From: [Muricauda] lutisoli (nom. illeg.)
GTDB lineage: Bacteria; Bacteroidota; Bacteroidia; Flavobacteriales; Flavobacteriaceae
Assembly: GCF_017313105.1 (NCBI RefSeq)
Contig: NZ_JAFLND010000001.1
Span: 558,001-622,000, forward strand
Length of the DNA stretch: 64,000 bases
Direction: 5' to 3'
Below the pieces are notes generated by a model that saw only the letters and a program-made list of their open reading frames with translations, ran no database searches and was not told where the DNA came from. The translations under genes were made by a program, and so were the position numbers. Every line of letters starts with the position of its first letter. Positions within the stretch are counted from its first letter, which is position 1. This document shows, in pieces, positions 2,396 to 26,179 of the stretch.

Positions 2396-3118
2396 TTAAT
2401 ATTTACGAACGCTTCCCGAAACGGATTTTTTGGTTTCAACGCTGGCATCGCCGGTGTATTTGATATCCGCTCCGCTGCTAGCATCTGCGACCAAAGACTC
2501 CGAAACATTCACGGAGATATCGGCACCGCTGCTGGCGTCTGCGTTACATCTTTTTACTATAAGGTCCTGAGCTTTAATATCGGAGCCGCTACTGGCATCG
2601 GCAAATAGTGCATCTGCCTGTCCTGATACCTTGATATCGGCACCGCTACTGGCATCGGCGGAAACTTCGCTCGCCACAACCTCTACATGTAGGTCGGCAC
2701 CACTACTGGCGTCCAGTTCAATGTTTTCGGCCTTAACCACGTTTTGTGCAATAAGGTCGGCACCACTGGAGCTTTCCAAAGCTGTGATCTCTGGTAAGGT
2801 CACGTAAACGTTTTTGGTAGCTCTTCCAATATTTTCAATGGCGTGTATTTTAAGTCTACCATCCTTAACATCCGTTCCAATTAGGTCAATAATGTTTTCG
2901 TCGGCCTCAACCGTAATGTTAAAGTCAGAGCCTTGAGTTACGAATACATCTATTCCTTCTGAAGCGGATACGATGTCAAAATCCTCTTTTACATCGCGGC
3001 TTTCTTCCACGACTTCGCCGTTACCGGTTTTTCCGTTGCCGAAGTTCATATTCATCATGCATGAGGATGCAAAGAGAGATAGGAGTGCGGTGATTGCTAA
3101 TCTTGCTAGTGTTGTCAT
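2396..3118 (-). CDS. DUF2807 (head GIN domain) lipoprotein
   Basis: A 240-residue exported protein. The first 20 residues form a lipoprotein signal ending LLSLFASSC, so C20 is the likely lipidated cysteine. The mature part is a DUF2807 domain with about six near-identical turns of the type DASSGADI between residues 115 and 230, as expected for a right-handed beta-solenoid whose SSGAD turns stack. It is the last gene of the run DUF4870, PadR, PspC, DUF2807. The family is abundant in Bacteroidota envelopes, but its molecular function is not established; an adhesive or structural role is a guess. Confidence 0.88.
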   Translation of the reverse strand: MTTLARLAITALLSLFASSCMMNMNFGNGKTGNGEVVEESRDVKEDFDIVSASEGIDVFVTQGSDFNITVEADENIIDLIGTDVKDGRLKIHAIENIGRATKNVYVTLPEITALESSSGADLIAQNVVKAENIELDASSGADLHVEVVASEVSADASSGADIKVSGQADALFADASSGSDIKAQDLIVKRCNADASSGADISVNVSESLVADASSGADIKYTGDASVETKKSVSGSVRKY

Positions 3119-3234
3119 GATTGTTGTTTTATTATTGATTGATTTATGATGTCTACTGAAATTAATCAGTGTAAATGTCTGTTTTTATATATGTGTTTTA
3201 AATAATGATCTACTGAATTGACGAATTAGGGGGT

Positions 3235-4971
3235 TCAATTGTTACTTTTTTCTTTGGCTTTAACCTTTACCCCATCTTCGTTGATTTTCATTTCAAAAGA
3301 GTCTTGGTCGTCCTTGATGTCGATATCGATACCATCTTCATTGATGATGATCTTGCCATTACCATCGGATTCCTCATCATCATCTTCGGGGCAATCCAAG
3401 CATTTCAACTCTCCGTCATCCTTCATCAACCAGTACTGACCCGCCATACCGCTTCGGTAAAAACCTTGATCGTTGTCGATTCCCCTGCCAATGTATCTGG
3501 TAGTGGAGCTGTCAAAATAAACCGTCATGGATTCTGGTACATAAATGGTTATGGTCACCTCCTGGTTTCTGGCTTTGTTCGATGTTTCCGTGGTCAAATA
3601 TTTGTCCAGTACAATTTCATTGCCATCAATGGTGTAAGCATATTCAATGTTCCTGGCGCGGTCACGAGCTGCCGGTGTTGAACTTCCATCCGCATCTTTT
3701 CTAATGTTGATGCTGATGGAGTCTGTATCCGACTTTCTTACTTTAACGTCGACTTCATCAGACATTAAAATACGGTTGTCGTTTTCGTCATAACCAAAGG
3801 TCATCCTACCAAAATGGATGTCGTCCCGATTATAATCCATTTCGCCATCCTTCATTGTAATGACCAAAGTATCAGAAGGCATTTCCATTGTTAATTCTGT
3901 TCTATCGTTAACGCTTCCGGTATAAGAGAATTCCGCTGCCTGGCGTATACCAAATACGATCAACAGTCCTACGGAAATCAACCAAAGGCCCAACAAGGAG
4001 AATTTGGCAATGTTTCCGATGGATTTAAGATTGTTCACCAATATCTTCAAACCTAAATAAAGCAGGAAGAAGAACGGAATACCCACGGCGAAGAACATTA
4101 AAATGGATACCACCCATACAGGCGCGCCCGAAGTGTTCACGATCTCGTAAAAATCTATACCGGGCACATGTACCGCATCGAACATACCCACGGTGAATAG
4201 ACCGAAAAACAATCCTACCAAGGTAGATGCACCGATGATGATCAACAGAATGCCTATGAACTTACCGAATACCTTGAAAAGGAACAGGATAATGTCCCCA
4301 ATGGTATCAAAAAAGGTCTTGGAGCCGCTTTTGACCTTGTCGCCCACTTTTTCGTAGTCAACATTTTTTACTTTGTCCGCAACATCATCAAACCCCTCTT
4401 TAACTTTGCGTTCTATATTGCTGATGTTGACGGGCTCTCCCCGCATATCCAATTTTTGGGAGGTTGTGGCGGCTTCGGGAACCAAGATCCAAAGTAGGAT
4501 ATAGGCAATAAAGCCAAAACCACTGGTAAATACGGCCAACAATATAAATATGAGCCTTATCCAAAGGGCATCGATGCCCAAATAATGTTCCAAACCGGCA
4601 CAGACACCACCAATGTATTTGTGGTCGATGTCCCTATACAGCTTTTTTGCCCTGTTCGTAGAAGATTCGGCGTGGCTCTTTTTGGGTTCGTCCTCAAAAA
4701 TATCCTCGTCCACCATGTAATCTTCGGGCTGCCCCATTACTTCGATTACTTGATCAACTTCTTTGTGGGTGATTACCTGTCTCTCGTTCTCCATTTTCTC
4801 CAAGAAGAGTTCGGCAATCCTTGCCTCGATATCGGCAATGATCTCGTCGCTTCCCTTGGTACCTGCAAACGACCGTCTAATGGACTCCAGGTACCGTCTC
4901 AGCTTGTTATACGCGTCATCGTCTATGTGGAAGAGCGTATTTGCTAGATTTATATTTACTGTCTTGTTCAT
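3235..4971 (-). CDS. PspC-domain transmembrane protein
   Basis: A 578-residue membrane protein. Residues 1-100 are acidic, soluble and helical. A PspC domain follows at about 110-170 (KLYRDIDHKYIGGVCAGLEHYLGI, then a long hydrophobic helix). Three more membrane segments lie roughly at 225-260, 285-310 and 320-345, then a C-terminal beta-rich domain of the type also found in DUF2807/DUF4097 proteins, ending in a Cys pair (CLDCPEDDDEE) and an acidic tail. PspC domains respond to envelope stress in other bacteria. The gene sits 9 nt downstream of the PadR gene, a common Flavobacteriaceae arrangement, so an envelope-stress or surface-homeostasis role is likely but unproven. Confidence 0.9.
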   Translation of the reverse strand: MNKTVNINLANTLFHIDDDAYNKLRRYLESIRRSFAGTKGSDEIIADIEARIAELFLEKMENERQVITHKEVDQVIEVMGQPEDYMVDEDIFEDEPKKSHAESSTNRAKKLYRDIDHKYIGGVCAGLEHYLGIDALWIRLIFILLAVFTSGFGFIAYILLWILVPEAATTSQKLDMRGEPVNISNIERKVKEGFDDVADKVKNVDYEKVGDKVKSGSKTFFDTIGDIILFLFKVFGKFIGILLIIIGASTLVGLFFGLFTVGMFDAVHVPGIDFYEIVNTSGAPVWVVSILMFFAVGIPFFFLLYLGLKILVNNLKSIGNIAKFSLLGLWLISVGLLIVFGIRQAAEFSYTGSVNDRTELTMEMPSDTLVITMKDGEMDYNRDDIHFGRMTFGYDENDNRILMSDEVDVKVRKSDTDSISINIRKDADGSSTPAARDRARNIEYAYTIDGNEIVLDKYLTTETSNKARNQEVTITIYVPESMTVYFDSSTTRYIGRGIDNDQGFYRSGMAGQYWLMKDDGELKCLDCPEDDDEESDGNGKIIINEDGIDIDIKDDQDSFEMKINEDGVKVKAKEKSNN

Positions 4972-4980
4972 TTTTTGATT

Positions 4981-5310
4981 CTATTTTGTGTTGGTTACCA
5001 GATTGACTGCATTTCTTAGTTCGTCCCAGGTGCCGTTGAGTTCGTTTAAAAACAATTGCCCCGTTTCTGTAAGAGCGTAATATTTTCGGGGCGGTCCCGA
5101 TGTGGATTCTTCCCAACGGTAGTTGAGCAATCCAGCATTTTTAAGCCTTGTGAGCAAAGGGTATATGGTACCTTCCACTACTAACATCTTTGCGTCCTTT
5201 AAGGCTCCCAGAATTTCTGAGGCATACTTGTCGTCATCCTTTAGGATGGACAGGATGCAATACTCTAGAACCCCCTTGCGCATCTGTGCTTTTGTGTTTT
5301 CTATGTTCAT
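4981..5310 (-). CDS. PadR family transcriptional regulator
   Basis: A 109-residue winged-helix repressor of the short PadR class: helix-turn-helix at about 12-75 (GVLEYCILSIL ... GTIYPLLTRLKNAGLL), then the beta-wing with RKYYALTETG, then a C-terminal dimerisation helix. It lies directly upstream of the PspC gene (9 nt), a pairing widespread in Bacteroidota. PadR proteins usually repress their own operon. The best operator candidate is the palindrome over the promoter upstream of DUF4870 at 6079-6099, so the whole four-gene run is probably its target. Confidence 0.92.
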   Translation of the reverse strand: MNIENTKAQMRKGVLEYCILSILKDDDKYASEILGALKDAKMLVVEGTIYPLLTRLKNAGLLNYRWEESTSGPPRKYYALTETGQLFLNELNGTWDELRNAVNLVTNTK

Positions 5311-5521: not shown

Positions 5522-6004
5522 TTATTTGATGAATTTTATAGTGAACGGGTATTTGAAATATTCCCCCTCATTGGTTCTAATGGTGGCCAAAATGGTAAAT
5601 ACAATGTTTACAACGGCCAGGGCCACCTGCAAAAATCCTGATATGCCTACAGGCCATATAAGTCTTCCTAACCTAAAATCGTCGCTATCGATGTGAATGT
5701 TTAGGTTATTGAGGTCGCTCAACCCATGGAACCCGAAAAAGTTCCAATCGAACAAGTCTGGCCAAAATCCAATAAAGAATGGAATGGTGACCAAACCTGC
5801 CACGATGGAATAAAGCAACATACTAATTTGAAAATTCAGAGCCTGTTTGCCGTTGTAATCGACAAACGCATGCTCTTTTTTGTTGGCTGTCCATAAGATC
5901 AATGGAAGTATAAAGTTTCCAAAAGGAATAAAGTACTTCGAGAACATGGACGCGTGGATGATCGCGGATAAATTTCGTTCGTGTTTGGTGATTGTAGTTG
6001 CCAT
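5522..6004 (-). CDS. DUF4870 domain membrane protein
   Basis: A 160-residue Tic20-like/DUF4870 protein with hydrophobic segments at about 22-40 (FSKYFIPFGNFILPLILW), 55-80 and 118-142. The conserved NKKEHAFVDYNGKQALNFQ motif following the first segment is diagnostic of the family. It is the promoter-proximal gene of the DUF4870-padR-pspC-DUF2807 run and its ATG follows an AATCAAAAA leader. Function is unknown; it is expected in the inner membrane as part of an envelope module. Confidence 0.88.
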   Translation of the reverse strand: MATTITKHERNLSAIIHASMFSKYFIPFGNFILPLILWTANKKEHAFVDYNGKQALNFQISMLLYSIVAGLVTIPFFIGFWPDLFDWNFFGFHGLSDLNNLNIHIDSDDFRLGRLIWPVGISGFLQVALAVVNIVFTILATIRTNEGEYFKYPFTIKFIK

Positions 6005-14215: not shown

Positions 14216-14635
14216 CTAGAACCGGATATTCATTTCCAAATCCTCATTGCCCACGGTAAACTTCGCACTATTAAATGTGGGTGGACCCATTGCCATATCG
14301 TTACCGGACATTCCATAGCTTTCTTTCGGCATTCCATTGGACTGATAATCCATACGGTTGTTTTCATTGGCATCGTGCATTGCCATAATGGCATAATTGC
14401 CAGGAGAGACATTGGTAAACGTCAAGGTTACTTTTCCATTTGTAATGGCACTTTGAAGGTTTTGTAGCCCCTGTCCTTTCATAAAGGTATCTTCGGTATG
14501 AAGGCCGGCCAATACTTTACCTTCATCGCTGGTTATGTTGTCAATGGTGATCGTAATGTCGATTCCTGGTTTTTCTTGTGCCATGGCGATGATACTCACA
14601 AAGAAGAAACTTAATGCTAGTGTTACAGTTTTCAT
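14216..14635 (-). CDS. DUF2141 domain secreted protein
   Basis: A 139-residue exported protein: a Sec signal peptide (MKTVTLALSFFFVSIIAMAQ) then a DUF2141 domain of about 115 residues (DITITIDNITSDEGKVLAGL ... YAIMAMHDANENNRMD). The domain is a small beta-sandwich predicted outside the cytoplasm. The frame is open to 14737, but the ATG at 14635 starts the signal peptide directly. It is divergent from the TonB receptor gene across 213 nt, so the two may be co-regulated. Function unknown. Confidence 0.88.
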   Translation of the reverse strand: MKTVTLALSFFFVSIIAMAQEKPGIDITITIDNITSDEGKVLAGLHTEDTFMKGQGLQNLQSAITNGKVTLTFTNVSPGNYAIMAMHDANENNRMDYQSNGMPKESYGMSGNDMAMGPPTFNSAKFTVGNEDLEMNIRF

Positions 14636-14848
14636 AATGTTTGTTTTTGATGTTTTATATGCTTCAAAATTCATGAAGTAGCTGATCTTATAAAATTTCA
14701 TCCTACCGAAATGTTGATTTTTTGGAGTGAACTGCAAAGTGAAAATTGCAATTCAATTCGGTTAGAAAAAACTACAATTGGGTATTTCGTTTTGGTTTGG
14801 CTCAATGCTGAAGGGGAAATTTGTGGCATCAATCAAAAACGAACGGTC

Positions 14849-17011
14849 ATGAAAATCTTCAGCAATCTAATCACCTTATTACTATGCACGGGAACTGTTT
14901 TTTCGCAACAGTCCATAACAGGAAAAGTTACCGATGCCAAAAACAACCCGATCGAAGGGGCCAACATTTATCTGGAAGGTACTTACGATGGTGCTTCTTC
15001 GGACCCCAATGGAAACTTTAGTTTCGAGACTACCGAAGAAGGACTTCAAACGCTTATAGTTTCCATGTTATCCTTTGAGCCCCACCGCGAGGCCGGTGAC
15101 ATTGGCTATTTCAAGAATCTGCACATTACATTGATGGAGTCCGTGAATTCGTTGTCGGGAGTTACCTTGACGGCAGGTACTTTTGAGGCAGGGGATAATT
15201 CCAAGGTGTCGGTACTGAAACCGCTCGATATTGTTACCACGGCTGGGGCTGCTGGGGATTTTGTGGCCGCTTTGCAGACATTGCCCGGCACCACAACGGT
15301 AAATGAGGACGGCCGTTTGTTCGTTAGGGGAGGTACCGCAGGAGAGACACAGGTTTTTATAGATGGGCTGCGCGTTTTTCAACCCTTTAATGCGACACCG
15401 AACAACACACCTACCCGTGGTAGGTTTTCGCCCTTTCTTTTTAAGGGGATTTCCTTTAGCACTGGTGGCTATTCGGCCGAATATGGCCAAGCCCTCTCCA
15501 GTGTGCTATTGCTGAACACCACGGATGTACCTTTACAAGAGAAAACGGATGTTTCCATAATGAGTGTTGGCGGTGGTGTTGGTCATACAAGAATTTGGGG
15601 TGACCAATCGTTGAGCATCAACACGAATTATTTGAATCTTGCCCCATATGAAGCGTTGATTCCCTCTACCCAAGGAGTCCGTTGGAACAGTCCGTACGAA
15701 TCTGTCTCTGGTGAAGCGGTTTTTAGGAGCCGAGGAGAAAAGAGCATGTTCAAATTGTACACGGGATTCAACCACACCAATTTGGATATTGAACAGGAGG
15801 ATATCAATTTTGAAGATTATGTACGTTTCCGGCTCAAGAACAATAACCTATACTTTAATTCGTCCTATAAATACTATTTCGCCAACGACTGGAGCTTGAC
15901 CTCAGGAGCTTCCATAGCTTGGGATTCCAATGATATTGAAATTGAGGAGGACAGGGTGGATATCGGGGAAACATCAATGCACCTTAAGGTAAAGGCCCGC
16001 AAAAATTTCAGTAATCGGTATGATTTGAGTTTTGGGGCGGAATATTTCCATACCAATTTTGATGAAACCTTTACCGATACGGATGTGGATGCTTTCAAAA
16101 GCGGATATTCTGATGGCCTGTGGGTGGCCTTTGCGGAATCCGATATCTTTTTGAGCAATAAATTCGCTATGAAACTGGGCGTTCGGGCCACCCATAGTAG
16201 TTTGTTGGATGGTTTTGAAATGTCACCTCGCGTGTCCTTGGCCTACAAACCAGGAGAAGAAGGCCAGTTTTCCTTGGCTTACGGCGATTTTTACCAGAGG
16301 CCGCTCTCCGATGTGGTAAAGTTTGATCAAGACTTGGAGATGGAGAAAGCATCCCACTACATTATTAACTACCAATACATCAACAACGGAAAAACCTTTA
16401 GAACCGAGTTTTATTATAAGGACTATGACCGTTTGATCAAATTTGATACGGATGTGCCACAGTTCAATTCAATGTATACGAACTCGGGAGGAGGCTATGC
16501 CAAAGGCATCGATGTTTTTTGGAGGGATAGTAAGAGCATTGATAATTTGGATTATTGGTTCTCTTATTCCTTTCTGGACACTGAACGCGACTATCGAAAC
16601 TTTCCTGAAAAGGCAACTCCGAACTTTGCACCAAAACATAATATTTCATTGGTCACCAAATATTGGGTGGATAAGCTGCGCTCACAGGTTGGACTGTCGT
16701 ATTCTTATGGATCGGGGAGGCCATATCACAATCCGAACAACCCTGGGTTTATGGAAGAGCGAACCAAATCGTACAATAATTTGAGTTTTAATTGGGCCTA
16801 CTTGATCGATCAACAAAAGATCTTATACTTCTCCATAAGCAATTTATTGAGCATCATTAACGTCAGTAATTATCAATATACCGATGTCCCGGATGTAAAT
16901 GGATTCTATGATCGAAGAGCGATCACGCCACCTGCGGATAGCTTTTTCTTTGTTGGGTTCTTTTGGACCATCAGCACCGATGGTAAAAGCAATCAATTGG
17001 ACAACCTTTAG
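14849..17011 (+). CDS. TonB-dependent outer-membrane receptor with carboxypeptidase-like regulatory domain
   Basis: A 720-residue outer-membrane protein. A signal peptide (cleavage after VFSQ) is followed by a carboxypeptidase regulatory-like (CarboxypepD_reg) beta-sandwich (SITGKVTDAKNNPIEGANIYLEG), a plug domain with LFVRGGTAGETQVFIDGLRV at about 155, and a beta-barrel. The last residues are mostly polar and do not end in a classical aromatic. The frame extends upstream to 14711, but 14849 starts at the signal peptide. No SusD partner follows, so it is not a polysaccharide-locus SusC; the substrate could be iron, vitamin or peptide. The small neighbour DUF2141 is the only candidate partner. 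Confidence 0.9.
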   Translation: MKIFSNLITLLLCTGTVFSQQSITGKVTDAKNNPIEGANIYLEGTYDGASSDPNGNFSFETTEEGLQTLIVSMLSFEPHREAGDIGYFKNLHITLMESVNSLSGVTLTAGTFEAGDNSKVSVLKPLDIVTTAGAAGDFVAALQTLPGTTTVNEDGRLFVRGGTAGETQVFIDGLRVFQPFNATPNNTPTRGRFSPFLFKGISFSTGGYSAEYGQALSSVLLLNTTDVPLQEKTDVSIMSVGGGVGHTRIWGDQSLSINTNYLNLAPYEALIPSTQGVRWNSPYESVSGEAVFRSRGEKSMFKLYTGFNHTNLDIEQEDINFEDYVRFRLKNNNLYFNSSYKYYFANDWSLTSGASIAWDSNDIEIEEDRVDIGETSMHLKVKARKNFSNRYDLSFGAEYFHTNFDETFTDTDVDAFKSGYSDGLWVAFAESDIFLSNKFAMKLGVRATHSSLLDGFEMSPRVSLAYKPGEEGQFSLAYGDFYQRPLSDVVKFDQDLEMEKASHYIINYQYINNGKTFRTEFYYKDYDRLIKFDTDVPQFNSMYTNSGGGYAKGIDVFWRDSKSIDNLDYWFSYSFLDTERDYRNFPEKATPNFAPKHNISLVTKYWVDKLRSQVGLSYSYGSGRPYHNPNNPGFMEERTKSYNNLSFNWAYLIDQQKILYFSISNLLSIINVSNYQYTDVPDVNGFYDRRAITPPADSFFFVGFFWTISTDGKSNQLDNL

Positions 17012-18307: not shown

Positions 18308-20095
18308 ATGGAGATAAAACTACCCCTGTTTTTTCAAACTACATTTCCGTCCCAATTTGAGCGTTATTTTTTTGCGCTATCGATCATTTTTTTTCTGGGC
18401 CTTACCTCACAAGCCCAAGAAGAGAATAATCCCTATGTGAGTTACGACGTCCCATTTCAAAACCTGCTAAAGTTCAACCGGTTTTTGATCAACCCCACCT
18501 TTTCTTCCATAAGGGAGGACAAATCTTATATAAACTTCTTTCATCGAAGTCAAAGTGCCGATTTCGAGAACAATCGCCAAAACTATTTTCTGAGCTATAG
18601 TGGTAGAATAAATGATAGGGTTGGGCTTGGCTTTAGTTTATATAATCAAAGTGAGGGGGTAATTTCCAATTTGGGCGTTATGGCCAATTACTCCCACGGC
18701 ATACAGTTAGGGGAGGAAAGTAGCCTGACATTTGGTGTCAATATTCCCTATTATGTAAGTAGTTACGATCCGAGTAGAGCGGTTACCCAAGAAGAAGATC
18801 CTTTTTTGAGACAGGCTGAGGAAAGTTCCGTTATATCGTTTCAACCTGGCCTTAACTTGAGCATAGGTAAGTTCGATTTTGGTGTTTTTGCCCAAAATTT
18901 GGTGGACTACAATATAAAGTCTGGGAACTCCTTGACCAATTTGAATGAAAAAACCTTCTCTGGTCATATACAGTATGTGTATGAGTTCGAGAATGGCAAA
19001 GGTATATTTGAGGATAGCAGGTTAATGCCTTTGGCAAGAGCCCGCTTTAAGGGAAGTGAGGACCCGGTTTTTGGAGGAGGTATAATCCTTGACCTTCCCA
19101 AGTTGGGGTGGGTTCAGGGAGGATATGATCAGTTTTACGGAGCATCTGCTGGAACAGGTTTTAATCTAAATCAAAGACTGTCTTTTGGGTATAATTTTGA
19201 GAAAAGCCTGAGCAACAGCATTGCCAATCTTGGTGTGACCCACGAAATTTCCATTGCCTACTCTTTTGTGCCCAATCTTTCCAAAAACACCTTCGTTTCC
19301 AACGATGATGAAGAGAAAAAGAAGATTGAGAACTCTGCCGTAGCCGATGCAGGTAATAAAACCGAACAAACGGAGCAGAGCAGTAAGTTGGATGTAAAAA
19401 CCACCTTGCGCCCATCCAACAAAGAAGACAGGGCATATTGGGAGGAGCGTGTAGCTCAACTTCAGGAACAAAAGGAAGATAGTTACGCGGTAATAGATGA
19501 TTTGCTCTATAAAGTGGATTCCATGAAACAAAGTAGGGAAGCCGATATGGAGAAGCGCTTTGAGATGGTGATGAGACTGGTAAAAAGACATAATGGAGAC
19601 CAGATTCCAGATATCGAAAGGAAAGCTCAAAAGTTGTACATGGCGGACAGTAAGGATTTAGACTCCCTTTATAATTCAATTGAAGCTTCGACTGCTACAG
19701 CTTTGGCAGAAAATACCCAAGTCGTTTCCAAAAAAGTTGAGAAGAAAAATGAAGGTAAATTTCATGGTGGAGCATTTAAGCCCATTGAGAAATATATCAA
19801 TCTGGAAGGTGTAGGGCAAGGACATTATATTGTGGCCAATGTTTTTAAGAATGAGACATACCTTAAAAACTTTATGAAAGAATTAAAAGGTAAGGGATTG
19901 CAGGCACAATATTTTAAAAATCCGGATAACGGACTCAATTATGTTTATTTGGCCAAGTACCAAGAGAACGAGGCTGCATATGCTGCTTACAAATCTCAAT
20001 TAAAGGGGAAATATCAGGATGAGATTTGGATCATGCATGTTGAAAACCCCAGATACTCCAATTGGGCCGATACGATGTTCCAGGATATTGAATAG
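18308..20095 (+). CDS. PorP/SprF family type IX secretion outer-membrane protein with C-terminal SPOR-like region
   Basis: A 595-residue protein. After a signal sequence (cleavage near TSQAQ) residues 35-325 form the PorP/SprF beta-barrel (NPYVSYDVPFQNLLKFNRFLINPTFSSI opening, YGASAGTGFNLNQRLSFGYNFE near the end). Residues 330-480 are charged and include a helical stretch that may be a coiled coil. Residues 500-585 (GQGHYIVANVFKNETYLKNFMKEL) look like a SPOR-type repeat. PorP/SprF proteins link type IX cargo to the gliding/secretion apparatus or present adhesins. No partner adhesin gene is next to it. A SPOR-like tail would add peptidoglycan contact. Confidence 0.85.
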   Translation: MEIKLPLFFQTTFPSQFERYFFALSIIFFLGLTSQAQEENNPYVSYDVPFQNLLKFNRFLINPTFSSIREDKSYINFFHRSQSADFENNRQNYFLSYSGRINDRVGLGFSLYNQSEGVISNLGVMANYSHGIQLGEESSLTFGVNIPYYVSSYDPSRAVTQEEDPFLRQAEESSVISFQPGLNLSIGKFDFGVFAQNLVDYNIKSGNSLTNLNEKTFSGHIQYVYEFENGKGIFEDSRLMPLARARFKGSEDPVFGGGIILDLPKLGWVQGGYDQFYGASAGTGFNLNQRLSFGYNFEKSLSNSIANLGVTHEISIAYSFVPNLSKNTFVSNDDEEKKKIENSAVADAGNKTEQTEQSSKLDVKTTLRPSNKEDRAYWEERVAQLQEQKEDSYAVIDDLLYKVDSMKQSREADMEKRFEMVMRLVKRHNGDQIPDIERKAQKLYMADSKDLDSLYNSIEASTATALAENTQVVSKKVEKKNEGKFHGGAFKPIEKYINLEGVGQGHYIVANVFKNETYLKNFMKELKGKGLQAQYFKNPDNGLNYVYLAKYQENEAAYAAYKSQLKGKYQDEIWIMHVENPRYSNWADTMFQDIE

Positions 20096-21379: not shown

Positions 21380-21987
21380 TGTTTTTGTGTTATGGTTAAT
21401 TATTTATAGTGAAAAGCTCAATCAATGTATGACCTAAATTTATAGGTAGGTATACTTAACATCAGGGCATTGAGCACCTTGATCAATGACTACAATTATT
21501 GACTTAAAATAATTTTAGGGTAACTGGGGGAATACAACTTGCCTTATCCAATCCTCAAAACACAAATTTCAGTTGCAAGTAAAGGTCTAATTTAACTAGA
21601 ATAAATGTTGGGCTGTAAAGGGAAATATGCTTTGCATAACCAACTATTAAATATAATAAAAATCTGTAAATGAGTGCCTTAAAAATGTTTCTATTTGCAA
21701 AATGAGTGTAAATCAGGATGATTTTCCTACAGAAACATTTCTTGCCTTTCCATTGTTGTAATAGTAAGATCGCGGCCATGGGGTTTACTTGAGCCGTTAA
21801 TTAAATGTTCAACTTCAAAAAGAAGAAAATTTAAAAACCTGAATCTAGGTTGTTTTGTTCTCTTTTGAAGGGGTTCCCGATACAAACTACAATCCAGTCC
21901 CAAATATTTACAGTTCAGTAATCCTTCTTTTAAAAAAGGCTTTCGTCAATTCATCTTTGCGCTATCAATAATCATAAAACAACAGTC
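21380..21987. other. 608-nt intergenic region upstream of the histidine-kinase operon
   Basis: No credible gene. A 74-codon minus-strand frame (21555-21779) lacks any family resemblance. The distal part is AT-rich without obvious hairpins. The proximal 100 nt carry the LytTR-type direct repeats and -7 element described separately. The length and emptiness would allow an unrecognised small RNA, but nothing in the sequence demonstrates one. Confidence 0.6.
21889..21959 (+). promoter_or_regulatory. LytTR-type direct repeats with promoter, unit 1
   Basis: ACAATCCAGT at 21889 and ACAGTTCAGT at 21910 are 21 nt apart, the spacing of LytTR/AgrA-type sites (AgrA box core ACAGTTAAG). CATCTTTG at 21952-21959 matches TAnnTTTG in 7 of 8 positions, 42 nt from the start of the second box. 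No -33 TTG is present, consistent with an activator-dependent promoter. The ATG of the operon is 29 nt downstream. Confidence 0.65.
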
Positions 21988-22611
21988 ATGAAAAAACTAA
22001 TTTTAACAATGGTGCTCTTGGGGGCCACATTTGTGAATGCACAGGATCGTTATTCCAAAGGAATGGAAAAGGCCTTTGAGCTATGGCAAAGCCAAAAGAC
22101 AATGGAGGCATCCCATATGTTTGAGCGTATAGCTACGGCAGAGCCCGATAAATGGCTCCCTTACTATTATGTTTCGCAGATCAACACCATCATATCATTT
22201 GGAGAAAAGGATGAGGACAAACTGAGCGAACAACTGCAAAAAGCCAAGGAATTTTTGGATGTGGCCAAGACCATTTCACCGAATAATCCCGAGCTTTTGG
22301 TTCAAGAAGCACTCATTAACACCGCTTGGATTGCTTTTGACGGTGCAACCTATGGTATGACCCTTTCTCCAAAGAATGCACAATTGTATCAAAAAGCCAT
22401 GGAATTGTCACCCAACAACCCAAGGGTAATTCTATCTAAAGCGGAGTGGGATATGGGGTCTGCCCGGTACTTCGGTAAGGATACCGCTCCATATTGCCAA
22501 GATGTGGAAAGGGCGTTGGAACTTTTTGCTACCTTTAAATCCGAAACACCATTTTATCCGACTTGGGGCGAAGAGAGAGCAAAAGAGATATTGGAAAGCT
22601 GTGGTAAATAA
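21988..22611 (+). CDS. Exported TPR-like protein, first gene of the kinase operon
   Basis: A 207-residue periplasmic or secreted protein with signal peptide (ILTMVLLGATFVNAQ). It contains degenerate tetratricopeptide units, for example KAKEFLDVAKTISPNNPELL and KAMELSPNNPRVI, plus two Cys residues (YCQDVE, ILESCGK). It ends 3 nt before the histidine-kinase gene, so it is co-transcribed with it. A role as a periplasmic partner of the 2TM kinase is an inference from the operon. Confidence 0.83.
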   Translation: MKKLILTMVLLGATFVNAQDRYSKGMEKAFELWQSQKTMEASHMFERIATAEPDKWLPYYYVSQINTIISFGEKDEDKLSEQLQKAKEFLDVAKTISPNNPELLVQEALINTAWIAFDGATYGMTLSPKNAQLYQKAMELSPNNPRVILSKAEWDMGSARYFGKDTAPYCQDVERALELFATFKSETPFYPTWGEERAKEILESCGK

Positions 22612-22614
22612 GAA

Positions 22615-23946
22615 ATGATGAAACTCCTGATAAGAGAAGTTTTTAGGGCATTGGTAATAGGGGTGGCTATTTTTATAGTGTCCCTAATTATCTACTTTGT
22701 TAACGGTTGGGAATTCACTTTTCAGGAACTGTCCAAGGATTTTTGGGAAACCATTGTGTTTTCCACGATAATCTACCTCTGTAATGCCGCTTCTTTTATT
22801 ATGCTCATGCGGAAATACGACAAAGAGCTGTTCACCCGCAAATACATTGGTTATGGTATCATTGGAAATATCCTGGCATCCATTATCGGAATCTTTTTGG
22901 CTCGTTTTGTCTTAAAGGTATGGATATACAAAGTAAGTTTTGGTGCTTTTATTTCGGCTGAAACCCCACGGGATTATTACTCTTCCTTTTTTATTGCAAT
23001 GATAGTGGCCCTGTTGTTCTATGCGGCTTACTACTACAAGTTTTACAAGGAAAAGCAGGTAAAGGAGCAAAAAATAATCGCAGGTTCGGCATCTGCCCGA
23101 TTCGATGCCTTAAAAAACCAATTGGACCCTCACTTTTTGTTCAACAGTCTTAATGTTTTGACAAGTTTGATCGATGAAGACCCGCAACAAGCTCAAAACT
23201 TTACCACCTCTTTATCCAAAGTATACCGATATGTGCTGGAGCAGAAAAACAAGGACCTGGTCACTGTGGATGAGGAATTGAAGTTTGCCCGAACTTATGT
23301 GAGACTTCTTAAAATGCGTTTTGAGGATAGTATCATTTTCGATATTCCCGATCATTGTTCCCAGCCCGAAGCTAAAATAGTACCGCTGTCGCTACAGCTT
23401 TTATTGGAAAATGCGGTAAAGCACAATGTGGTAACATCTTCCCGACCATTGCACATTAAAGTTTTTGAAAAGAACGATATGTTGGTGGTGAGCAACAACC
23501 TACAGGAAAAGCAAGTAGTGAAAAAGAGTAGTGGGGTAGGGCTACAGAATATAAAACAGCGTTACAATATTTTGACCGACCGCGAAATGGTCATTGAAAA
23601 AACAGAAAAGGATTTTAGTGTTTTTATCCCTATGCTTACCCAAAAATACACGGTTCTGGAGACTCAGGAGAGCTATATTGAGGAAAAACGCTATGCGAAT
23701 GCCAAGGAACGGGTCAAGAATATTAAGGACTTCTACGGCAATCTTATGGCGTATTGCATTGTTATTCCTTTTTTATGGTGGCTCAATTTCCGCACTACGG
23801 ACTTTTTATGGGCATTTTTTCCAACCATAGGCTGGGGCTTTGGGCTAACCGCGCACGGAATGGCCGCCTTTGGCTATAATCCATTATGGGGCAAACGTTG
23901 GGAGGAACGTAAGATCAGGGAACTCATGGATAAGGACGATTTCTAG
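22615..23946 (+). CDS. LytS/YehU-type sensor histidine kinase fused to a C-terminal 2TM domain
   Basis: A 443-residue inner-membrane kinase. Four membrane helices lie at about 11-29, 46-66, 78-100 and 122-142. The His_kinase domain has phospho-acceptor H173 in NQLDPHFLFNSLN; the ATPase has the N box ENAVKHN (265-271) and the G box GVGLQNIKQR (307-316). After a linker, residues 358-440 are a complete 2TM domain (RYANAKERVKNIKDFYGN ... WEERKIRELM) similar to the four stand-alone proteins downstream. The partner is the LytTR regulator at 25424. A membrane domain behind the catalytic domain would place the ATPase between two membrane anchors, an unusual topology. Confidence 0.92.
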   Translation: MMKLLIREVFRALVIGVAIFIVSLIIYFVNGWEFTFQELSKDFWETIVFSTIIYLCNAASFIMLMRKYDKELFTRKYIGYGIIGNILASIIGIFLARFVLKVWIYKVSFGAFISAETPRDYYSSFFIAMIVALLFYAAYYYKFYKEKQVKEQKIIAGSASARFDALKNQLDPHFLFNSLNVLTSLIDEDPQQAQNFTTSLSKVYRYVLEQKNKDLVTVDEELKFARTYVRLLKMRFEDSIIFDIPDHCSQPEAKIVPLSLQLLLENAVKHNVVTSSRPLHIKVFEKNDMLVVSNNLQEKQVVKKSSGVGLQNIKQRYNILTDREMVIEKTEKDFSVFIPMLTQKYTVLETQESYIEEKRYANAKERVKNIKDFYGNLMAYCIVIPFLWWLNFRTTDFLWAFFPTIGWGFGLTAHGMAAFGYNPLWGKRWEERKIRELMDKDDF

Positions 23947-23985
23947 AGCCAAATTTCCACTCCTTACCCTTCACCCTAGCCACTA

Positions 23986-24056
23986 ACAATTCATCCTACA
24001 AAAATTACAGTTCGGGAATTCGTTTTTCATTTTACATGAAAGTATGGGGATATTTG
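23986..24056 (+). promoter_or_regulatory. LytTR-type direct repeats with promoter, unit 2
   Basis: ACAATTCATC at 23986 and ACAGTTCGGG at 24007 are 21 nt apart. GATATTTG at 24049-24056 matches TAnnTTTG in 7 of 8 positions and starts 42 nt after the second box, the same offset as in unit 1 upstream of 21988. No -33 TTG at the expected place. Drives the 2TM gene run starting at 24088. Confidence 0.65.
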
Positions 24057-24087: not shown

Positions 24088-24366
24088 ATGGAAAACTTTG
24101 AAGAACAACGTTATGCAAGAGCAAAGGAAAGAGTGGAGCGCATCAAGTCTTTTTACTCCAATCTAACTGCCTATTTTCTGGTGATTCCATTGCTCGCTTA
24201 CTTAAACTTTAGGACAACCGGTTTCCCCTGGTCCATTTTCCCGGCGATTGGATGGGGCCTTGGACTGGTAGGGCATTGGATGACAGCTTACGGGCAGAAC
24301 CCTATTTTTGGAAAGGAGTGGGAAGAACGTAAGATTCAGGAGCTTATGAGCAATAAAGAATTTTGA
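24088..24366 (+). CDS. 2TM domain protein A
   Basis: A 92-residue protein that is nearly all 2TM domain: RYARAKERVERIKSFYSN, two hydrophobic segments separated by NFRTTGFPW, then WEERKIQELM. It is the closest relative of the kinase C-terminal domain, sharing LNFRTT and the IGWG motif. Expected as a helical hairpin in the inner membrane with both ends in the cytoplasm. First gene of the second LytTR-controlled unit. Confidence 0.9.
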   Translation: MENFEEQRYARAKERVERIKSFYSNLTAYFLVIPLLAYLNFRTTGFPWSIFPAIGWGLGLVGHWMTAYGQNPIFGKEWEERKIQELMSNKEF

Positions 24367-24410
24367 GAATGAGTACTTTTAGCTATAACACCACATTAAA
24401 AAACAATACC

Positions 24411-24713
24411 ATGGAGTCTTCAGATAAAGAGAACAAATATTTACGGGCCAAGGAGCGTGTGGAAGAGCTCAAAAAATTTTATGGGAACCTTACTTCCTAT
24501 GTCGTGGTAATTTCGGGATTGGCCCTGATCAACTATTTTACCAACCATTTTGCCTATGCCTGGTTTTTATGGGCTGCTTTTGGCTGGGGTATCGGGATCG
24601 TTTTCCATGCCATTAAAACATTCGACCTAAACCCATTTTTTGGCAAACAGTGGGAAAAACGCAAAATAGAAGAGTTTATGCGCGATGATGAACAGAACAA
24701 CAAATGGAAATAA
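24411..24713 (+). CDS. 2TM domain protein B
   Basis: A 100-residue 2TM protein: KYLRAKERVEELKKFYGN, hydrophobic pair, FGWGIGIVFHAIKTF, WEKRKIEEFM. The frame opens further upstream (from 24363), but the ATG at 24411 gives the MES start that parallels the MEN starts of paralogues A and C. It is 44 nt after paralogue A and probably co-transcribed. Function unknown beyond the domain. Confidence 0.88.
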   Translation: MESSDKENKYLRAKERVEELKKFYGNLTSYVVVISGLALINYFTNHFAYAWFLWAAFGWGIGIVFHAIKTFDLNPFFGKQWEKRKIEEFMRDDEQNNKWK

Positions 24714-24715
24714 TC

Positions 24716-25036
24716 ATGGAAAATTTTAATAAGGAAAAATATAACAGAGCCAAAAAAAGAGTGGACGAACTCAAGGGCTTTTATATTCATTCGGCCATTT
24801 ATGTGGTGATAAACACCTTTATTTTGATCAATATTTATCTTAATACAGATAGTTTTTGGCAATGGGAGCATTTTATCACATTGATGGCCTGGGGCATTGG
24901 ATTGTTGTTCCACGCCTCAAAAACCTTTGGATTCAACCCACTATTGGGCAAGGACTGGGAAGAGCGCCAGATTCAAAAGTATATTGACGAGGACAGAGAG
25001 GAAATGAACAAGTTCAAAAAGGATGGAGACAAATAG
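24716..25036 (+). CDS. 2TM domain protein C
   Basis: A 106-residue 2TM protein: KYNRAKKRVDELKGFYIH, two membrane segments, MAWGIGLLFHASKTFGFNPLLG, WEERQIQKYI, then a charged tail. The ATG at 24716 follows the stop of paralogue B by two bases; an in-frame ATG at 24704 overlapping that stop is an alternative. Tight packing implies translational coupling. Confidence 0.88.
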   Translation: MENFNKEKYNRAKKRVDELKGFYIHSAIYVVINTFILINIYLNTDSFWQWEHFITLMAWGIGLLFHASKTFGFNPLLGKDWEERQIQKYIDEDREEMNKFKKDGDK

Positions 25037-25358
25037 AAACTTGCTGAGGAGAAATGCTGAAAAGCGAGTTAAAGAACTCAAAGGATATTATAGTCACATC
25101 ATCATTTTTGTAATCGTAAACGGTATTCTTTACCTCTTAAAAACGGGAGTTTTGAACTCCTTGTTGCCAGAAGCATTTCCAAAGGAATCTTATTATTACG
25201 ACTGGATCAATGCCAATATTCTGATTTGGGGGTTGATCTTGTTGGTGCATACCTTGATCTTATTCAGGCATAAATTCACTTTCTTTAAAAAGTGGGAGGA
25301 GCGCCAAATTCAAAAATACATGGATGAGGATAGGAGCAAGGTTGATAAATATAAGTAG
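25023..25358 (+). CDS. 2TM domain protein D (diverged)
   Basis: A 111-residue, most divergent paralogue. It keeps KRVKELKGYYSH and WEERQIQKYMDEDR, but the loop between the membrane segments is enlarged (about 25 residues with KESYYYDW) and the glycine-rich GWGxG motif is reduced to LIWGLILL. Its start overlaps paralogue C by 14 nt. The terminal gene before the LytTR regulator. Confidence 0.88.
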   Translation: METNRNLLRRNAEKRVKELKGYYSHIIIFVIVNGILYLLKTGVLNSLLPEAFPKESYYYDWINANILIWGLILLVHTLILFRHKFTFFKKWEERQIQKYMDEDRSKVDKYK

Positions 25359-25423: not shown

Positions 25424-26179
25424 ATGAATGTCCTGATCATTGAAGATGAAAAACCAGCAGCAAGACGGTTGTCCAGATTGCTCGTAGAATTGGAAATTGA
25501 AGTCTCAACCATGCTGCATTCGGTTGAAGAATCCATAGTCTGGTTCAAAGAAAATCAGCATCCCGATTTAATCTTTTTGGACATCCAATTATCGGACGGG
25601 CTTTCCTTTGAAATTTTTGATGAGGTCGAGGTAAAAAGCGCCATCATTTTTACCACTGCTTATGACGAATATGCACTCCAAGCTTTTAAGCTGAACAGCA
25701 TCGATTATTTACTTAAACCCATTGAAGAAGAAGAGCTGGAAAGTGCAGTAAAAAAGTATCGGAATTTTAAGCCTGAAAACCGAAAAATCCCCATCGATTT
25801 TAACGACATAAAAAAGCTTCTGGTAAACCCTTTGGAACGTGATTACAAAAAACGATTTACAGCTAGGGTTGGGCAACATTTAAAAATTATAAATGCTGAT
25901 GAGGTGGAATGTTTTTACAGCGAAAACAAAGGAACCTATGCTGCAACCTCCGATGGTAGAAATTATTTGTTGGACACCACTTTGGAACAGTTGGAAGAGG
26001 AATTGGAGCCGCAGACATTTTTTAGGGTAAGCCGAAAGTTCTATGTGAACATCAACCATATAGGAGATATCATTTCATACACAAATTCAAGGCTTCAAAT
26101 CAAACTGAACCGTTTTAACGAGTACGAAGTCATTGTAAGTAGGGAACGTGTTAGAGACTTTAAGTTATGGTTAGAGTAA
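25424..26179 (+). CDS. LytTR family response regulator
   Basis: A 251-residue response regulator. The receiver domain (1-115) has E7/D8 and phospho-acceptor D53 in LIFLDIQL, with T at FTTAYD and K at YLLKP. The LytTR DNA-binding domain covers about 140-250 (RFTARVGQHLKIINADEVECFYSENKGTYA ... TFFRVSRKFYVNINHI). Upstream, TACCTTTG at 25385-25392 is a perfect -7 element, so it may also have its own promoter. It should accept phosphate from the kinase at 22615 and bind the two direct-repeat sites in this locus. Confidence 0.93.
   Translation: MNVLIIEDEKPAARRLSRLLVELEIEVSTMLHSVEESIVWFKENQHPDLIFLDIQLSDGLSFEIFDEVEVKSAIIFTTAYDEYALQAFKLNSIDYLLKPIEEEELESAVKKYRNFKPENRKIPIDFNDIKKLLVNPLERDYKKRFTARVGQHLKIINADEVECFYSENKGTYAATSDGRNYLLDTTLEQLEEELEPQTFFRVSRKFYVNINHIGDIISYTNSRLQIKLNRFNEYEVIVSRERVRDFKLWLE

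Follow-up and report, generated by a model that had tools for sequence, protein, structure and literature searches.

A predicted LytTR regulon and its promoter grammar in a LytS/LytTR locus of Flavobacteriaceae

The 64,000-nucleotide stretch of [Muricauda] lutisoli DNA analysed here (the window) very probably contains the control region of a Flavobacteriaceae LytS/LytTR system, in which the regulator encoded at 25424, once activated by its kinase, would turn on five units. According to this model, the membrane kinase would phosphorylate the regulator, which would then bind as a pair to two ACARTTC-type boxes placed one LytTR period (21 nt) apart. Bound just upstream of a degenerate -33 element (a T-run), it would recruit RNA polymerase to the Bacteroidota -7 element (TAnnTTTG). 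The five units thus controlled would be husA-like-kinase, the 2TM run with lytTR (autoregulation), a TonB-dependent receptor gene, a DUF2141 gene and a DUF2807 gene beside pspC. We infer binding by the 25424 protein, activation and the signal sensed by the kinase; the latter may be the state of the envelope or of a porphyrin-type ligand, read through the membrane.

Box form, period and autoregulation are already known for LytTR regulators. No description of the Flavobacteriaceae regulon and its promoter grammar was found in the open-access literature surveyed. For uncharacterised Bacteroidota families (2TM, DUF2141, DUF2807/PspC and HusA relatives), the predicted circuit provides a regulon and a transcription-factor target open to testing, and for the -33/-7 promoters of Bacteroidota it sets out a LytTR promoter grammar.

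Structure of promoters A and B

Promoters A and B are located upstream of the kinase operon and of the 2TM run, respectively (Table 1). Both consist of two boxes with a period of 21 nt and of a -7 element that matches TAnnTTTG in 7/8 positions and starts 42 nt after the start of box 2. Direct reading showed that the first-pass annotation, which had reported these four box positions, periods and -7 elements, was correct to the base. The same annotation stated that neither promoter has a -33 TTG. TTG is indeed absent near -33 at both A and B, but the region is not empty: a conserved TTTT run occupies the expected -33 position, 20-21 nt 5' of the -7 element.

Known binding sites of LytTR regulators consist of two 9-bp repeats with 12 bp between them, located directly 5' of -35 (PMC6193735; AgrA, PMC4227749). 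Both box pairs have this form, i.e. two direct repeats of about 9 bp near ACAGTTmAG, separated by a 12-bp spacer. Since the 21-nt period is that of the 9 bp-12 bp-9 bp repeats in LytTR operons already characterised (PMC6193735), it supports assignment of the boxes to a LytTR protein. Box 2 is 7-9 bp from the conserved T-run, in agreement with the ~8-11 bp upstream of -35/-33 expected for LytTR sites. Generic sigma-70 and terminator scans returned nothing informative.

A dimer bound upstream of such a weak core promoter most likely activates transcription, including that of its own gene. Some LytTR proteins, e.g. AgrA at bsaA, also repress (PMC4227749), and activation is deduced here from box position alone; the regulator might repress, or its binding might tune basal promoters without strict activation. 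We consider this unlikely, because both boxes are situated entirely 5' of the core promoter, with the spacing that LytTR activators use, and because this core is a weak one (with a T-run, not TTTG, at -33 and a 7/8 match at -7), as at activator-dependent promoters.

Table 1. Promoters and genes of the predicted regulon in the window
Feature	Position	Strand	Remarks
Promoter A box pair	21889..21918 (21889-21897 + 21910-21918)	+	ACAATCCAGT at 21889, ACAGTTCAGT at 21910; 54.8 bits
Promoter A core	21928..21959	+	T-run 21928-21931 at -33; -7 element CATCTTTG 21952-21959
Promoter B box pair	23986..24015 (23986-23994 + 24007-24015)	+	ACAATTCATC at 23986, ACAGTTCGGG at 24007; 70.0 bits
Promoter B core	24023..24056	+	T-run 24023-24027; -7 element GATATTTG 24049-24056
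Promoter C	14753..14823	+	boxes 14753/14774, -7 element 14816-14823; 28.2 bits; upstream of TonB-dependent receptor gene
Promoter D	14665..14735	-	divergent box pair upstream of DUF2141 gene; 20.0 bits
Promoter E	3172..3242	-	box pair overlapping pspC 3' end, upstream of DUF2807 gene; 22.1 bits
DUF2807 (head GIN/Toastrack) protein	2396..3118	-	adjoins pspC
PspC with LiaI-LiaF-TM and Toast-rack domains	3235..4971	-	adjoins DUF2807 gene; no own box pair
PadR	4981-5310		upstream of pspC
DUF4870	5522-6004		upstream of pspC
DUF2141 secreted protein	14216..14635	-	divergent from receptor
TonB-dependent receptor (CarbopepD_reg_2, Plug, beta-barrel)	14849..17011	+	downstream of promoter C
HusA-like secreted TPR-fold protein	21988..22611	+	first gene of kinase operon; structure and profile
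LytS-type histidine kinase (PF06580) with C-terminal 2TM domain (PF13239)	22615..23946	+	
2TM protein A	24088..24366	+	64% identity to kinase C-terminus
2TM protein B	24363..24713	+	45% to kinase C-terminus; in-frame ATG at 24411
2TM protein C	24704..25036	+	38% to kinase C-terminus
2TM protein D	25023..25358	+	29% to kinase C-terminus
LytTR response regulator (Response_reg + LytTR)	25424..26179	+	last gene of promoter-B unit

Conservation of the box pairs

If functional, the repeats were expected by the first-pass annotation to recur upstream of orthologous genes. A search of related genomes bore this out: the box pair recurs at both places in nearly all ~70 congeners and across Flavobacteriaceae. 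The genus set comprised the locus from 69 further genomes, assigned to Flagellimonas/Allomuricauda by named contigs, making 70 loci in all; the closest relative is Allomuricauda profundi, with a kinase 98% identical. The order husA-like gene, kinase, 2TM run, lytTR is kept across the genus loci, the husA-like gene being non-adjacent in eight genomes. Of the 70 loci, 62 have a box pair scoring at least 10/13 at site A, and 67 have one at site B.

This is not due to general DNA similarity, since boxes and TTTG are 85-98% conserved per column in the genus, whereas the 20-nt gap before the -7 element reaches only 43-50%. Period and offset are fixed. Strict box pairs with period 21 were found in 41 genomes (70 genus loci) and 24 genomes (68 family loci), while any other period occurred in at most one genome in these two sets. 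Counted from box 2, TTTG has an offset of 46 (42 for the start of the -7 element) at 99/108 sites in the genus and at 40/64 in the family.

As the elements are short, we asked whether the resemblance could arise by chance or reflect generic Bacteroidota promoter sequence. Searched for on its own, the loose box pair shows no genome-wide enrichment (21 hits, 18 with the reversed control), and the -7 element was therefore added to the search pattern. The full pattern was found in 217 of 301 Flavobacteriaceae genomes representing 237 genera, its reversed control in 4. From 121 sites in other species of the genus a weight matrix was derived; in 12 random 64-kb sequences with the dinucleotide make-up of the window, it gave no score above 6 bits. 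Together with conservation in genus and family, these comparative data already contradict a chance origin, which we regard as extremely improbable.

Promoters C, D and E and their target genes

Using the pattern (up to 3 mismatches) and the matrix, the whole genome was searched for further sites. Only five hits, all in the window, score positive; the other six range from -12 to -35 bits. Hence the first-pass count of two promoters, though right about A and B, was incomplete, three more being present at 14753 (+), 14735 (-) and 3242 (-). These sites C, D and E score far lower (20-28 bits) than A and B. Promoter C has the same target in relatives. In the interval 14665-14823, two divergent box pairs stand back to back, flanked by the genes for DUF2141 and for the TonB-dependent receptor. 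DUF4870, PadR, PspC and DUF2807 form a compact Psp/Lia-like cluster, in which the box pair at 3172-3242 (-) faces the DUF2807 gene. A gene for a PorP/SprF (type IX secretion) protein at 18308-20095, between the receptor gene and the kinase operon, is without box pair.

In 20-kb regions taken from other genomes of the genus and family, genes of these classes again lie downstream of matrix hits, mostly with ~85-125 nt from box 1 to ATG, and 28 of 30 sites sampled across the family precede these gene families. The sites in loci L212 and L245 are upstream of genes that do not belong to the main set, namely for a thioredoxin-like protein and for an unclassified secreted one.

The candidate targets are not always linked to the kinase. 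In genome G204, the DUF2807-pspC unit is ~0.74 Mb from the kinase and has its own box pair; the receptor-DUF2141-husA cluster, at least ~0.4 Mb from the kinase (by the shorter way on a presumed circle), likewise has its own. In G035 and G046, a receptor-husA pair ~60-75 kb from the kinase carries two box pairs. Box pairs that stay with putative target genes far from the kinase are the strongest evidence for the predicted regulon.

HusA-like protein and TonB-dependent receptor

No Pfam family matches the product of the gene that opens the kinase operon (21988). Its structural model (pLDDT 92.5) is most similar in PDB to the HusA haemophore of Porphyromonas gingivalis (6bqs, TM 0.79/0.81), and a profile search recovers HusA by sequence over full length (E 5.8e-19). 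The protein is thus a homolog of HusA, which was reported to pass porphyrin to the TonB-dependent receptor HusB (PMC6173696, PMC10100897).

HusA-like genes directly follow TonB-dependent receptor genes in many Bacteroidia families. Outside Flavobacteriaceae, this is true for 18 of 22 Bacteroidia loci when the receptor family of the window is considered, and a LytS-type kinase follows in 9 of these distant loci. The system resembles the Hus system of P. gingivalis in its HusA homolog and, in those distant loci, in receptor adjacency; unlike here, no LytTR link is described for Hus in the literature surveyed. In the window, the receptor gene is ~5 kb from the husA-like gene, yet it has the same promoter type. 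The predicted circuit would thereby place relatives of HusA, the porphyrin role of which was studied in Porphyromonas, under two-component control in mostly free-living bacteria.

DUF2807 belongs to the Toastrack group of Psp/Lia modules (PMC11237479). Because the targets include HusA and receptor on one side and DUF2807 on the other, a role in uptake plus envelope maintenance is suggested; the circuit would tie an outer-membrane uptake pair to envelope-maintenance genes.

Kinase, 2TM proteins and LytTR regulator

The kinase consists of a multi-TM N-terminus, a PF06580 core in which the H, N and G motifs are conserved, and a C-terminal 2TM domain, and is encoded in one locus with a REC-LytTR regulator, as is typical of LytS/LytTR systems. 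Presence of such a regulator had been claimed in the first pass, and the 25424 ORF does contain Response_reg and LytTR domains. A sequence search of the regulator against PDB gave matches to receiver domains alone. A model of its DNA-binding domain (pLDDT 88) displays the LytTR beta fold of AgrA/ComE type, with 3d6w, AgrA (4g4k/3bs1) and ComE (4cbv) as best PDB matches.

Along the operon, the 2TM paralogs become progressively less similar to the C-terminus of the kinase, as expected of serial copies, and their number differs among species. No functional data on this system were found in literature on 2TM or DUF2141 genes. For lytTR, a separate promoter was considered at a perfect TACCTTTG (25385) 5' of the gene and rejected, TAnnTTTG being present there in just 5/68 loci. 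Since lytTR has no conserved promoter of its own and ends the promoter-B unit, promoter B implies autoregulation. The membrane-protein run originally proposed as a target is indeed preceded by a box pair, but it ends in lytTR itself and so would also be autoregulatory. Similarly, the originally predicted circuit of kinase and regulator acting on two units agrees with the conserved box pairs upstream of both units and with the joint presence or absence of pattern, kinase and LytTR ortholog; it was too small, as there are five promoters.

Free 2TM copies made from a kinase-controlled promoter might conceivably feed back by flooding the membrane and competing with the kinase or resetting it, and the whole might represent a core Flavobacteriaceae response that combines HusA/receptor uptake with envelope maintenance. 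We put this forward tentatively.

Comparison with known systems

With AgrA/ComE-type activators, the system shares a box near ACAGTT, the 21-nt period, location just upstream of the core promoter and the LytTR fold. Differences are the Bacteroidota -33/-7 promoter, in which the -7 element keeps a fixed 42-nt offset from the boxes, and the LytS-like membrane kinase, which ends in a 2TM domain; no peptide pheromone was seen.

As in LRS (HdrRM, BrsRM; Bacteroides LRS-like operons; PMC6193735), the LytTR regulator would be co-transcribed with small membrane proteins, the repeats are 12 bp apart and ~8-11 bp upstream of -35/-33, and positive autoregulation is predicted (PMC6193735). LRS are characterised by a LytTR regulator without cognate kinase and by an inhibitory membrane protein. 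In contrast, the 25424 regulator contains a receiver domain (Response_reg), its probable cognate kinase is encoded in the locus and the membrane proteins are 2TM paralogs of the kinase C-terminus.

BtsS/BtsR and YpdA/YpdB also pair a PF06580 LytS-type kinase with a REC-LytTR regulator driving a transport function. Their boxes and targets are different, whereas the kinase described here has an added 2TM domain and the predicted response covers envelope genes. Finally, Lia/Psp envelope-stress modules (PMC11237479) resemble the arrangement of DUF2807 (Toastrack) beside a PspC/LiaI-LiaF-TM protein under predicted control of a sensor-kinase system. Here, however, LytTR would take the place of LiaRS, pspC has no box pair and no PspA was seen in the part of the locus examined.

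Distribution in Flavobacteriaceae and other taxa

We further examined whether the promoter pattern and the kinase occur together. The LytS-type kinase with C-terminal 2TM domain was detected in 228 of the 301 family genomes. Kinship ignored, 216 genomes contain both kinase and pattern, 12 the kinase only, one the pattern only and 72 neither. All 12 genomes with the kinase only carry a LytTR ortholog (59-84% identity), and weaker box pairs are present in several of them. The pattern-only genome, G078, is the sole family genome with the promoter pattern that lacks both kinase and LytTR ortholog. The sites, their geometry, conservation, targets and this co-occurrence are direct observations. The putative circuit appears to be kept across about three quarters of sampled Flavobacteriaceae and spans most genera sampled.

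About ten LytTR proteins are encoded in the genome, and the boxes might be targets of a different paralog, the local kinase and regulator being mere neighbours of a shared regulon. Nor is recognition of such boxes confined to the clade, as the same geometry is found beside other LytTR homologs (42-47% identical) outside the family. Such an assignment is nevertheless improbable: the 22 kinase-less family genomes tested have no close LytTR ortholog (best identity 37-49%) and, except for G078, no sites, and no pattern hit outside the cluster is recognised by the matrix in this genome.

Across the class as a whole, the kinase is rare, and hits to the strict pattern are near background. This strict pattern was not found in G392 and G662, kinase-bearing genomes of a second Flavobacteriales family. 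Box pairs are located directly upstream of the operon in G433 (2TM-kinase-lytTR, 38.9 bits) and in G660 (husA-2TM-kinase-lytTR, 24.5 bits), genomes of another family. Kinases of G433 and G660 have no 2TM domain, and 2TM is a separate neighbouring gene. Its occurrence as a separate gene in these genomes and as a fused domain in Flavobacteriaceae suggests that 2TM and kinase work together. Near other LytS/LytTR pairs, in loci L349 and L352, different carboxypeptidase-regulatory-like (TonB-receptor-like) genes have weak box pairs (13-14 bits) upstream of them, which hints at a promoter grammar that may be common to several LytTR systems.
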